A stretch of 64,000 nt of DNA from Gemmatimonadetes bacterium T265 (lineage in GTDB: Bacteria; Gemmatimonadota; Gemmatimonadetes; Gemmatimonadales; Gemmatimonadaceae), in contig BPUI01000001.1 in the NCBI GenBank assembly GCA_019973575.1, positions 1,252,342 to 1,316,341 of the forward strand, given 5' to 3'. Of the stretch, positions 52,755 through 56,802 are shown piece by piece; within the stretch, counting starts at the first letter, position 1; each line of letters opens with the position of its first letter. The position numbers and the translations under genes were made by a program. The notes below the pieces were generated by a model, which was given only the letters and a program-made list of their open reading frames with translations, had not been told where the DNA came from and searched no databases.

Positions 52755-53795
52755 ATGCCGCCTGCCTCCCCCGCCCCGCCCCTCCCGCCCGAGCTCGACC
52801 GTCGGCTCCGCGAGATGCCCAAGGTCGAGCTGCACGTACACCTCGAGGGCGCGATGGACGCCGACGCGGTGTGGGCGATGGCCGAGCGCAACGGCACGCC
52901 GCTGCCGGCCGCCTCGATCGACGAGTGGCGGTCGTTCTACGCGTTCCGCGACTTCGACCACTTCATCACGGTCTACACGGCCGCCGCGCGCGCGATGCGC
53001 ACGCCCGAGGACTGGGCGTTCATGGCAGAGCGGTTCTGCGCGGGGCAGGCGGCACAGCACGTCGTCTACACGGAGGCGTTCCTCAGCGCGTCGCTGATGC
53101 TGCAGACGCTGCCGCCCGCGGTGCTCGTCGACGCGCTCGCGGCGGGCGTGGCGGCGGGCGAGGCGCGCCACGGGGTGCGCGTCCGCTTCATCCCCGACAT
53201 CGCGCGGCACGTGCCCGACACGCAGCGCGCGGTCCTCGATTTCGTCTCACTGGGCCACGAACGCGGCCTGTTCCTCGGCCTCGGGCTCGGCGGGCCGGAG
53301 GTGGGGTTCCCGCCGGAGCTGTTCCGCGAGACGTACGCGGAGGCGCGGCGGCGCGGGCTGCGGGTGGTCGCGCACGCGGGCGAGACCGTGGGGGCGGCGG
53401 GCGTGCGCGGCGCGCTCGAGGCGTTAGGCGCCGAACGCATCGGGCACGGCGTGCGGGTGCTCGAGGACCCGGCCCTCGTGGAGCTGGCGCGGGCGCGCGG
53501 CGTGCCGTTCGAGGTCTGCCCGACGAGCAACTACCGGCTGAAGGTGGTGCCCGAGGGCGCGCCGCACCCGATCCGCGCGATGGTCGACGCGGGGCTCCTG
53601 TGCACGGTGAACTCGGACGACCCGCCGATGTTCGGCACGACGCTCGTCGACGAGTACCGGCGGCTCGCGCGGCAGGGGTTCGCGTGGGACGAGCTGTGGG
53701 CGCTCAACGCGAACGCGCTCGGCGCCGCGTTCCTCGGTGACGCGGAGCGCGCCGCGTACCGCGCCCGGTTCGACGCGTGGCGCGCGACGGCCTAA
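52755..53795 (+). CDS. Adenosine/adenine deaminase
   Basis: 346 residues from ATG 52755. Metal site HVHLEGAM (His27, His29) at the start, then GLGLGGPEVGFPPELF, VVAHAGETVGAAGVRGAL (HAGE), RIGHGVRVLEDP, VCPTSNYRLKV and VNSDDPPMFGTTL. All conserved residues for zinc and substrate are in place. It removes the amino group from adenosine or adenine in purine salvage; the two cannot be separated by eye. Leu-Gly in ALGAERI uses TTAGGC. Its end overlaps the next gene by 19 nt. Confidence 0.94.
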   Translation: MPPASPAPPLPPELDRRLREMPKVELHVHLEGAMDADAVWAMAERNGTPLPAASIDEWRSFYAFRDFDHFITVYTAAARAMRTPEDWAFMAERFCAGQAAQHVVYTEAFLSASLMLQTLPPAVLVDALAAGVAAGEARHGVRVRFIPDIARHVPDTQRAVLDFVSLGHERGLFLGLGLGGPEVGFPPELFRETYAEARRRGLRVVAHAGETVGAAGVRGALEALGAERIGHGVRVLEDPALVELARARGVPFEVCPTSNYRLKVVPEGAPHPIRAMVDAGLLCTVNSDDPPMFGTTLVDEYRRLARQGFAWDELWALNANALGAAFLGDAERAAYRARFDAWRATA

Positions 53796-54901
53796 CGATT
53801 GCGCGTCCGACGGCGGCGCATCTGACGGCGGCGCGCGTGACGGCGGCGCGCCTGCGCGCGCACGTCGTCCGCCGCTCGCTGTTCGCCCCGACGACGCTCG
53901 CCGCGGCGGTCGCGCGCCTCGGGTTCGTACAGGCCGACCCGATCCGCGCGCCGGCGCGGGCGCAGGACCTGATCCTCCGCCACCGCGTCGCGGGCTACCG
54001 GGCGGGCGACCTGGAGCGCGCCTACCCCGCGCTCGGCCTCGACGAGGACGTGCTCTACGCGTACGGCTTCGTCACCCCGGAGGTGCGGGCGCTGCTGCAC
54101 CCGGGCGCCGCCCAACCGCCGGGCGGGCTCGCGGGCGCGGTGCTGGCGTACGTGCAGGCGGCCGGCCCCGTGCACCCGGCCGACGTCGCGGCGCGCTTCG
54201 CGGCCGGCGCGGAGCGGAACGCGTGGGGCGGCCTCTCGCGCGCCAGCACCCGGGCGCTCGAGCACCTACACGTGCTCGGCCTCGTGCGCGTGGCGCGGCG
54301 CGACCAGGGCGTGCGCGTGTACGAGGCGGCCGCGACGCCGGCGGTGGTCCTGTCGCCGGCGGAGCGGCTGCGCGGGCTCGTCCTCTGGCTCGCCGACCTG
54401 TTCGCGCCGCTGCCGGAGGCGGCGCTGCGGCGCGTGCTGCGCTACGTGCCGTTCGTGCGGCGCGAGGTGCCCGCGCCGGCGATGCGGGCGGCAGTGGGCG
54501 AGCTGCTGCGCACTGGCGCCCTGGAGGCCGGCGTGGTGGACGGCGCGACGTGGGTGTGGCCCGCGGCCGTGCGCCCGCACGAACCGGTCGCGGCGCCGCG
54601 GGCGGTGCGCTTCCTCGCGCCGTTCGACCCCGTGGTGTGGGACCGGGCGCGCTTCGAGCAGCTGTGGGGGTGGGCCTACCGGTTCGAGGCGTACACGCCG
54701 GCGGCGCGACGCGAGCGGGGGTACTACGCACTCCCCGTGCTCTGGGGCGACCGGGTCGTCGGGTGGGCGAACGTCGCGCGGCGCGCGGGGCGGGTCGACG
54801 TGGCGCTGGGGTTCGTCGGGACGCGGCCGCGCGGGGCGGCGTTCGGGCGCGCGCTCGACGCGGAGGTGGCGCGGGTGGAGGCGTTCCTCGCACCGCGGTG
54901 A
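53777..54901 (+). CDS. Winged-helix DNA glycosylase-like protein (AlkZ/YcaQ family)
   Basis: 374 residues from GTG 53777 (overlap of 19 nt with the deaminase; a later start near LTIARPT is possible). Hallmarks: LGFVQADPIRAPARAQDLIL with Q-A-D, HRVAGYRAGDLERAYPA, EDVLYAYGFV, a central wHTH tandem (HPADVAARFA; LSRASTRALEHLHVLGLV) and late RFLAPFDPVVWDRARFEQLW and GYYALPVLWGDRVVGWANV. AlkZ-type glycosylases open interstrand crosslinks; Q-x-D is the catalytic motif. The 3' end is duplicated at 55795-55845. Confidence 0.9.
   Translation: MARDGLTIARPTAAHLTAARVTAARLRAHVVRRSLFAPTTLAAAVARLGFVQADPIRAPARAQDLILRHRVAGYRAGDLERAYPALGLDEDVLYAYGFVTPEVRALLHPGAAQPPGGLAGAVLAYVQAAGPVHPADVAARFAAGAERNAWGGLSRASTRALEHLHVLGLVRVARRDQGVRVYEAAATPAVVLSPAERLRGLVLWLADLFAPLPEAALRRVLRYVPFVRREVPAPAMRAAVGELLRTGALEAGVVDGATWVWPAAVRPHEPVAAPRAVRFLAPFDPVVWDRARFEQLWGWAYRFEAYTPAARRERGYYALPVLWGDRVVGWANVARRAGRVDVALGFVGTRPRGAAFGRALDAEVARVEAFLAPR
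54851..54901 (+). repeat. Direct repeat copy 1 (3' end of the AlkZ-like gene)
   Basis: 51 bp ending at the TGA. 48 of 51 bases match 55795-55845. The copies bracket the HigBA-like module. Confidence 0.9.
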
Positions 54902-54924
54902 CGTGGGGCCGGTGCGTGCGGCGC

Positions 54925-55368
54925 CTAACGTGTCGCGCGCCGGTCCGCGGCCGGCTTGGTGCTCGCCTTGTGGCGGATCAGGCGCTGGAAGGCCTGCGGC
55001 CGCGCCGCCAGCACCTCGAGCACGCGCGCCGCAGGCCCGTTCGGCACGCGGGTGCCGAGTTCCCACGCCTGCTCCAGCTTCGGGCTCACGCCTACCAGGC
55101 GGGCGAAGACGCCCTGCGAGACGCGGAGCCTCGCGCGGAGCGCCTGCACGTCCGCCCTGGTGAACGCGGGCGGCGGTGCGACGGTCGTGTCGCGCTCCGT
55201 GCGCTCGCGCGTGGTGGTGCGCGCCGGGGCCGCCGCGCCGCGCGCGATCGCGGCCGCCTCCCCGGCGCTCGCGAGCAGCAGCGCCTCGAAATTCTCGCTC
55301 GTGACCGTCACCGCCTCGCACACGTCCGCCCCGTTCACCGTCGTGATGCGTCCCGTAGTCCCCGCCAT
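54925..55368 (-). CDS. HigA/NadS-like antitoxin (XRE HTH)
   Basis: 147 residues from ATG 55368, two bases after the toxin stop. The N-terminal part is unusual (MAGTTGRITTVNGADVCEAV); residues 80-130 form an XRE-type HTH: FTRADVQALRARLRVSQGVF, ARLVGVSPKLEQAWELGTRV, PNGPAARVLEVLAARP. These are the features of HigA-type antitoxins that follow their toxin gene. It should bind the palindromes at 55693-55719 and silence the operon. The gene is intact while the toxin is frameshifted. Confidence 0.87.
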   Translation of the reverse strand: MAGTTGRITTVNGADVCEAVTVTSENFEALLLASAGEAAAIARGAAAPARTTTRERTERDTTVAPPPAFTRADVQALRARLRVSQGVFARLVGVSPKLEQAWELGTRVPNGPAARVLEVLAARPQAFQRLIRHKASTKPAADRRATR

Positions 55369-55370
55369 GC

Positions 55371-55695
55371 TCACTCCTCTTGGATCATCCGCACGTGCGC
55401 CGCGAGCGCCTTCCGCCCGGCGTCGCTGATGCTGTCTGCGACGTTCTTGGGATAGGCGAGCAGGAGATAGACCCGCGCGCGCCGCCGCGTACACGTAGAG
55501 GACGCGCGCGCCGCCCGACTTGCCGCCGCCTGGCAGCGCGACGCGCAGCTTGCGCGCGCCGCCCGTCCCACGAACCACGGCGCCGGCCTGCGGATCGTCA
55601 AGGAGTGCATCCTGCATCGCGCGCAGTTCCGCGTCGGACAACACGCCCTTCGCCGTACTGGCGAAGAGCGGCGTTTCGACGAATGTCAGGCGCAC
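55371..55695 (-). pseudogene. HigB/RelE-type toxin, frameshifted in a CG tract
   Basis: GTG 55695 starts LTFVETPLFASTAKGVLSDA, ELRAMQDALLDDPQAGAVVR, GTGGARKLRVALPGGGKSGG, ARVLYVYAAARA. The proper continuation (RVYLLLAYPKNVADSISDAG, KALAAHVRMIQEE, stop 55371) is in another frame. The shift lies in the GCGGCGGCGCGCGCGG tract near 55477-55487. A RelE/HigB mRNA interferase of about 108 residues is expected when joined. As it stands the catalytic C-terminus is lost; a slippage switch in the CG run or an assembly error are both possible. Confidence 0.8.
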
Positions 55696-55719
55696 TGCGC
55701 AGTGTACTACGGAGTAGTA
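55693..55719. promoter_or_regulatory. Twin palindromes at the higBA start
   Basis: CACTGCGCAGTG (55693-55704), a perfect 12-bp palindrome over the toxin start, is followed by TACTAC-GGA-GTAGTA (55705-55719). Adjacent dyads at a toxin-antitoxin start are typical sites for antitoxin autorepression. Confidence 0.65.
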
Positions 55720-55794
55720 GGACATGCGAGTGCGTCACAACGGGGATTGTGGCACGTCTCCCTTCTCGCGACTCGCGGATCCGAGGTGGTCCCG

Positions 55795-55845
55795 GCGCTC
55801 GACGCGGAGGTGGCGCGGGCGGAGGCGTTCCTTGCGCCGCGGTGA
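55795..55845 (+). repeat. Direct repeat copy 2 (duplicate of the AlkZ-like 3' end)
   Basis: Matches 54851-54901 in 48 of 51 positions, ending in the same TGA. Differences: T to C, C to T, A to G. No upstream gene reads into it. Confidence 0.9.
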
Positions 55846-55903
55846 GGAGCCCACCGCGGTGTGATGCTCAAGTCGACGGAGGCCCCCCGCGCCGCTCAGC
55901 GCT

Positions 55904-56200
55904 TCACTTGCATTCGACCCGGCCCAGCGGATCGGGCGCGTCCATCAACGCGGCACACGCGGCGGGCCAGGTGGGGCCTTCGGGGTAGAGCGCGGTGCGC
56001 AAGTAGGCCCAGGTCAGCCGCGCGACCACCTCCACCCGCTCGGGGCTCTCTCGTCGGTCGTCTCGGCCGCGTCGTAGCCGGAGATCCCGCCGAAGATGTG
56101 CTCGGCGCCGAATAGCGTCAGCAGGCACTTGGGGCCCGGGCATTCGATCACGTGCCCGTCGGACCGAGTGACGTGAGGTGCGACGGACCGGTCAGGCCGC
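55904..56200 (-). pseudogene. 3' remnant of an alpha/beta hydrolase (dienelactone hydrolase/chlorophyllase type)
   Basis: From about 56200: SVAPHVTRSDGHVIECPGPK, CLLTLFGAEHIFGGISGYDA, AETTDE, then a one-base frame change and ESPERVEVVARLTWAYLRTA, LYPEGPTWPAACAALMDAPD, PLGRVECK and stop at 55904. The histidine loop of the catalytic triad (GAEHIFGG) is present, the rest of the enzyme (nucleophile elbow) is gone. A decayed gene end. Confidence 0.65.
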
Positions 56201-56340
56201 CGCCCACTCGGCAGTTTGTCACCGTCGGGGCGCCTCTCGAGTGGGCGCTACTGCATGGCGGATTCTCGTGCGTTGACGTGTAACGCGAAGCGCCCCACGC
56301 GGACTACGCTACAGGAAGCGGAACACGCGTCCGGACGTAA

Positions 56341-56802
56341 GCGGAACTCGGCACGGTCTACCCCCACTTTCCGCAGCGCTCCGGACTCGTCGCGGCGGTG
56401 TTCCGGCGCGAGGTCGACGCGTGTGCCGCCGCTGCCCCCGCCCTCGCGGCCGAGTACGCGCCAGGGGACGCGCTCGCCCGGTGGCTGCGGCGGGACACGG
56501 AGTTCATCGCCGCGAAGCGGGGCCTCGCCGGGGCGCTGCACTCGGGCGATCCCGCGTTCGCAGCCCTGCCCGCGTACTTCCAGCAATACCTCGACCCCGC
56601 CCTCGACGCGCCCCTCGCGGCCGCCGCCGGTGCGGTTCGCGGCGACGTCGACACGACCGACCTGCTGCGCGCGGTCGCGACTCTCTGCCTGGCCGCCGAC
56701 GCGCTCGACACCGGTGACGTGCGGCGCATGGTTGCCTTACTCATCGACGGCCTACGCTATAGCGGAACTGCGCCTGCGGCGACCGTGCGACCGCAACCGT
56801 GA
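56341..56802 (+). pseudogene. TetR-type regulator lacking its DNA-binding helices
   Basis: The frame opens directly after a TAA at 56338 with AELGTVYPHFPQRSGLVAAV, the end of a TetR HTH (T-V-Y-x-H-F-P), then a ligand domain: DALARWLRRDTEFIAAKRGL, LPAYFQQYLDPALDAPLAAA, DLLRAVATLCLAADALDTGD, VRRMVALLIDGLRY. This C-terminal type is found in SbtR-like TetR proteins. The first 30-40 residues are absent, so no DNA binding is expected. A start at GTG 56398 would give only the ligand domain. Confidence 0.72.

Follow-up and report, generated by a model that had tools for sequence, protein, structure and literature searches.

The last codons of a DNA glycosylase gene are found twice in Gemmatimonadetes bacterium T265, once at the end of the gene and once on the far side of a toxin-antitoxin-like module. 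This raises the question of how the module came to lie between the two copies, and it touches an older one, namely how chromosomal toxin-antitoxin (TA) modules without visible mobility genes spread. We analyzed the locus in its 64,000-bp stretch of the T265 genome (the window) and compared it with relatives in the family.

The duplicated end of the AlkZ-like gene

The AlkZ-like DNA glycosylase gene lies on the plus strand at 53813-54901 (ORF 53777-54901; PF06224, E=1.3e-40). Its final 16 codons and stop codon (copy 1, 54851-54901) recur as an isolated duplicate on the same strand (copy 2, 55795-55845). The two copies are in direct orientation, offset by 944 bp and identical at 48 of 51 bases. 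The preliminary description was exact in these coordinates, the identity and the spacing, and its "last 17 codons" is right if the stop is counted. The similarity ends abruptly on both sides, at the right edge exactly with the TGA stop codon. With the gene tail as query against the whole 5.6-Mb genome, copy 2 was found with E=3e-16; there was no third copy, and the next best match reached only 82% over 45 bp. The 51-bp repeat was absent from all 178 other family genomes when up to 3 mismatches were allowed. In 1.26 Mb of the T265 genome we counted only 15 direct repeats of similar strength (35 bp or more, 85% identity or more, 150-8000 bp apart). Judged by sequence and position and not by annotation, nearly all of them seem to be paralogous coding sequence or coding sequence with internal repeats, and apart from tandem paralogues the same 1.26 Mb contained no other isolated gene-end copy.

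The copies differ at three sites, two of which are silent. At the two informative sites copy 1 agrees with the AlkZ-like tails of relatives and copy 2 does not, the third site being uninformative; copy 2 therefore looks like a drifted, unselected copy. Such drift is expected for a tail displaced by an insertion, or for any duplicate freed from selection. The divergence had been taken as a hint of either age or origin in a related genome; age fits, and a foreign origin is not required. An inverted repeat of the att type was not detected above chance in the 51-mer. The tail had no exact match in viral contigs, and we rejected a phage origin for it. The palindrome CACCGCGGTG terminates copy 1 (54891-54900) and reappears just past copy 2 (55852-55861).

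AlkZ-like genes are sporadic in the family. The best relative shares 63% protein identity, and each of these genes is followed by different genes from those in the window; downstream of the two closest relatives we read a probable inositol-monophosphatase-like gene from the translation. A duplicated tail was found at none of 92 alkZ loci (319 kb of downstream DNA inspected), and alkZ as a common attachment gene was rejected. A higBA module was near alkZ at only 1 of the 92 loci and was arranged differently; in G008, the only relative in which the two genes are close to each other, they are more than 2 kb apart and in the other orientation. The preliminary description had suggested looking in relatives for an AlkZ-like gene whose end abuts the sequence that follows 55845, and had named a higBA module lying there without the second copy as evidence against its reading. 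Neither arrangement was found: no relative has the empty site (T265 is the sole genome of its genus), and in none does higBA immediately follow alkZ. Thus duplication and insertion are not separable at the alkZ locus alone.

A frameshifted higBA-type module and its surroundings

The interval of 893 bp between copy 1 and copy 2 contains only a minus-strand higBA-type module and operator-like palindromes. The antitoxin gene, higA-like, is open (54925-55368, minus strand) and encodes a 147-residue helix-turn-helix (HTH) protein which resembles NadS; the NCBIfam NadS match (E=2.1e-12) falls below the curated cut-off. Relatives of the antitoxin are present in 13 other genomes. The toxin gene, higB-like and of the RelE type (55371-55695, minus strand), is split by a frameshift near 55481 into an N-terminal piece (55480-55695) and a C-terminal piece (55371-55481) in different reading frames, and its PF06296 match is weak and below cut-off (E=0.003). 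By tblastn both pieces align, in order, to the intact higB genes of G040 (62% and 42%) and G006, and higA adjoins these intact genes. The HigBA label thus stands on a sub-cut-off NadS match and a weak RelE match, supported by these alignments to intact pairs. By its sequence we assign the module to the higBA type, with a RelE-like toxin gene upstream of an HTH antitoxin gene. The intact toxin ORF of a type II TA system is missing here, so the module is filed as a decayed relative of higBA; the frameshift may be genuine decay, or it may be an indel error in the sequencing of GC-rich DNA. The earlier assignment to a HigBA-like module holds for gene order and homology to intact pairs, but it overlooked the frameshift. 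The open antitoxin gene may persist as a leftover orphan regulator or antidote.

Two perfect palindromes, read directly from the sequence, lie over and before the higB start (55693-55719): CACTGCGCAGTG at 55693-55704 and TACTACGGAGTAGTA at 55705-55719. They look like a putative autoregulatory operator. Toxin gene first, HTH antitoxin gene second and palindromic operator-like DNA before the toxin are features shared with HigBA/NadS-type type II systems; the window module differs from them in its frameshifted toxin and in family scores under the curated cut-offs.

Beyond copy 2 the DNA is decayed. What is left of an alpha/beta hydrolase gene there, its C-terminal part (55896-56141, minus strand), is 89% identical over 246 bp to a copy elsewhere in the genome, where the intact paralogue lies in the G000:C1:2109570 region. 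It is followed by a TetR-type regulator gene without most of its DNA-binding domain (56348-56802, plus strand; TetR_C_43, E=4e-14, C-terminal part). Intact divergent hydrolase/TetR pairs are found at another place in the T265 genome, near 2108100-2109800 of G000:C1, and in Streptomyces. Judged by comparison with these pairs, 55896-56802 is the deletion-scarred, fused remains of such a pair. Real decay of the toxin gene fits these decayed surroundings.

No integrase domain (PF00589) was detected in or near the window. The locus accordingly does not have the form of a phage, ICE or island integrated with a tyrosine integrase gene beside its att site.

Bracketed toxin-antitoxin loci in the family

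We surveyed RelE-type (PF06296) loci with their flanks in 179 genomes. Together with loci already in hand this gave 47 loci, nearly all from Gemmatimonadaceae. A locus was called bracketed if it lay between direct repeats that were 30 bp or longer, 80% or more identical and separated by 2.5 kb at most. Thirteen of the 47 RelE/HigB-type loci were bracketed, a count that is not fully independent of the starting observation, as it includes the window and the G006 case which prompted the survey. Among control random intervals, 2.2% were bracketed in the T265 genome and 0.7% at alkZ loci; elsewhere within the surveyed TA loci bracketing was also raised, at 8.7%. The brackets are of several kinds: attC-like sites at L289 and L303, REP-like palindromes at L277 and L302, and coding-sequence similarity or unclear repeats at L274, L275 and in the counted repeat of L268. 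Outside the family, attC-like arrays were present at 2 of 15 loci and tandem tRNA 3' fragments beside 1 of 15. Integron cassette arrays with attC-like sites in the phylum contain RelE-type modules (L289, L303, L316 and L328).

Other modules with duplicated 3' gene ends, which the preliminary description had proposed to look for, do occur in the family, at tRNA-Pro, tRNA-Gln and kamA-like genes. In G113 two tRNA-Pro 3' ends, complete with terminators, flank a 933-bp higBA unit; the same tRNA gene also hosts an 8.5-kb element with an integrase, and the higBA unit lies distal to that element. The most extensive case is in G133 (L269, G133:C150:55617-64168), where six tandem modules of 0.9-1.7 kb lie behind tRNA-Gln and every one ends in a 39-90-bp copy of the tRNA-Gln 3' end. 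Two of them carry higBA (about 0.9 kb each) and the others carry HepT-like, short-chain dehydrogenase (SDR) and HTH-Fic genes and one module of unknown function; the 91.7-kb contig has no integrase. In G106 tRNA-Pro is followed directly by higBA and, farther on, by a 22-bp remnant of the tRNA 3' end (91%), and in G107 a tRNA-Pro 3' fragment lies on one flank of higB. The higBA pairs bracketed by tRNA ends belong to a PF06296 subgroup with a stronger match than the window's pair.

Ends of protein-coding genes form the bracket in two further genomes. In G006 (L147:5323-8108) a kamA-like gene is followed by higBA, an ORF and a second kamA 3' end with terminator; the two 3' copies are 92% identical over 588 bp and share a long near-identical core. 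In G166 (L299:4480-6608) an ORF and higA lie in tandem, with a 54-bp, 94% identical repeat at both 3' ends; from its translation we read the ORF as probably HipA-like. In the window and in these relatives alike, lone TA modules are enclosed by repeated tRNA or protein gene ends, which suggests that tiny mobile units can enter behind genes and leave them intact.

Insertion, duplication or exchange

We postulate that 54902-55845 is an old, decaying, att-bracketed and integrase-less unit, similar to a CIME, which inserted at the 3' end of the AlkZ-like gene and restored it; we give this reading about an even chance of being correct. Its sole cargo would be the higBA-type TA module. The unit would have arrived as a circle whose own AlkZ-tail copy recombined with the tail of the resident gene, that 3' end serving as the attachment site and the ORF being restored through its stop codon, so that two tails remained as attL- and attR-like repeats. 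Recombination might have been carried out by a tyrosine recombinase acting in trans, or the unit might be what is left of a larger element after loss of the integrase gene. Later the toxin gene would have been frameshifted and copy 2 would have drifted. What is directly observed is the repeat with its place and its uniqueness, the cargo, the frameshift and the parallel units in relatives; the circle, the recombinase and the order in which things happened are what we infer.

The insertion is favored because of the likeness to the higBA units bracketed by tRNA ends: the window unit is of about their length (interior of 893 bp vs. about 0.9 kb), carries a TA module and nothing else, has no integrase and is bracketed by copies of a gene 3' end that leave the gene whole. 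In its support, the repeat lies at the 3' end of a gene with its right edge exactly at the stop codon, and the interior holds higBA and palindromes only. Close parallels in the same family (G113, G133, G106 and G006) and the 13 of 47 bracketed loci vs. 0.7-2.2% in controls also argue for it. Counting against it, the window has no integrase, the relatives show neither an empty site nor a use of the alkZ end, and the 51-mer has no att-type inverted repeat above chance. The higBA pairs with tRNA brackets also fall into a PF06296 subgroup that matches more strongly than the window's pair, several of the 13 brackets belong to other types, and bracketing is at 8.7% elsewhere in the same TA loci. Of the two routes offered by the preliminary description, entry at the gene end with restoration of the gene gains from the lone higBA units at 3' ends of tRNA and protein genes but lacks an empty site in relatives, while tandem duplication is less economical, since it needs an extra deletion step.

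That duplication belongs to a broader and rather unlikely explanation, in which higBA already lay behind alkZ, template switching, or a tandem duplication plus deletion, gave rise to an ectopic copy of the 51-bp tail, and the 944-bp unit never moved. The lack of both an integrase and an att-type inverted repeat is in its favor, as are the drifted look of copy 2 and the deletion-scarred neighborhood with its truncated and fused hydrolase/TetR pair. However, the copying must have ended exactly at the stop codon and landed just past the higB promoter region, the tandem version requires the additional deletion, 1.26 Mb of the T265 genome yields no second isolated gene-end copy, and comparable brackets recur around higBA in relatives. 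Homologous recombination with DNA of a relative, in which higBA followed an AlkZ-like end, would be another way to place the module: a single crossover of a circle or concatemer within the tail would leave both versions of it. Recombination of the RecA type has a minimum length near 51 bp, the three differences between the copies include two silent ones, and the long gene-end bracket of G006 with its near-identical core is as expected from exchange or gene conversion. No donor with such an arrangement was found; the two genes in G008 are more than 2 kb apart and in the other orientation. We regard this explanation as improbable. Still more so, to the point of being negligible, is the idea that copy 2 is all that remains of another complete AlkZ paralogue, or that the similarity arose by chance. 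GC-rich codon patterns do give weak look-alikes (at most 82% over 45 bp genome-wide), but nothing alkZ-like lies upstream of copy 2, there is no further copy and the match has E=3e-16. The full paralogue, which had been named as a finding that would overturn the preliminary reading, is refuted for practical purposes.

The proposed inserted unit can be compared with known systems. CIMEs are elements that keep attL and attR and have lost their integration and transfer genes (PMC5704250). The window unit resembles them in its gene-3'-end direct repeats, in the restored gene and in the lack of integrase and transfer genes, and tandem accretion at tRNA genes is seen in the relatives G133 and G113. 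It differs in being only about 0.9 kb long with TA cargo alone, and a larger ancestor, a helper integrase and excision would all have to be assumed. In the tRNA-associated flexible islands fGI-2 of Methylophilaceae, repeated tRNA 3' ends bound additive modules (PMC10872708); there too the recurring last bases of the tRNA delimit modules, down to a few hundred bp, whereas the window has a single unit at the 3' end of a protein gene. TA-bearing integron gene cassettes are likewise single-module units of about 0.9 kb, and RelE loci bracketed by attC occur at L289, L303, L316 and L328. The window repeat, in contrast, is coding sequence without the attC cores (RYYYAAC/GTTRRRY), and an integron gene cassette was rejected. 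The literature search on gene-cassette TA systems in this bacterial group returned nothing directly on point.

If lone higBA units regularly lie between copies of gene 3' ends, in tandem behind tRNA genes, a borrowed site-specific recombinase could move them, and the repeats allow direct tests for empty sites, excised circles and helper integrases. The window unit would then show such behavior at a protein-coding gene, together with its subsequent decay. More tentatively, the family might host minimal integrase-less cassettes of about 0.9-1.7 kb with TA or other single-function cargo, which spread in trans through tRNA and protein 3' ends, restore the gene and can pile up in tandem; to this doubtful class the alkZ unit would belong as a decayed example.

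A separate feature of this DNA is GTTAGGC/GCCTAAC, which is enriched in the window beyond any other 7-mer (34 vs. 2.7 expected; for example at 54923-54929 and 53790-53796). Across 1.26 Mb of the genome its count exceeds expectation about 17-fold (707 vs. about 40), and it is found on both strands, inside and outside coding sequence. G021 likewise shows an approximately 29-fold enrichment in 31 kb, while the remaining family genomes that were sampled have it near the expected frequency or not at all. An uptake-like, a HIP1-like or a modification motif are possibilities.
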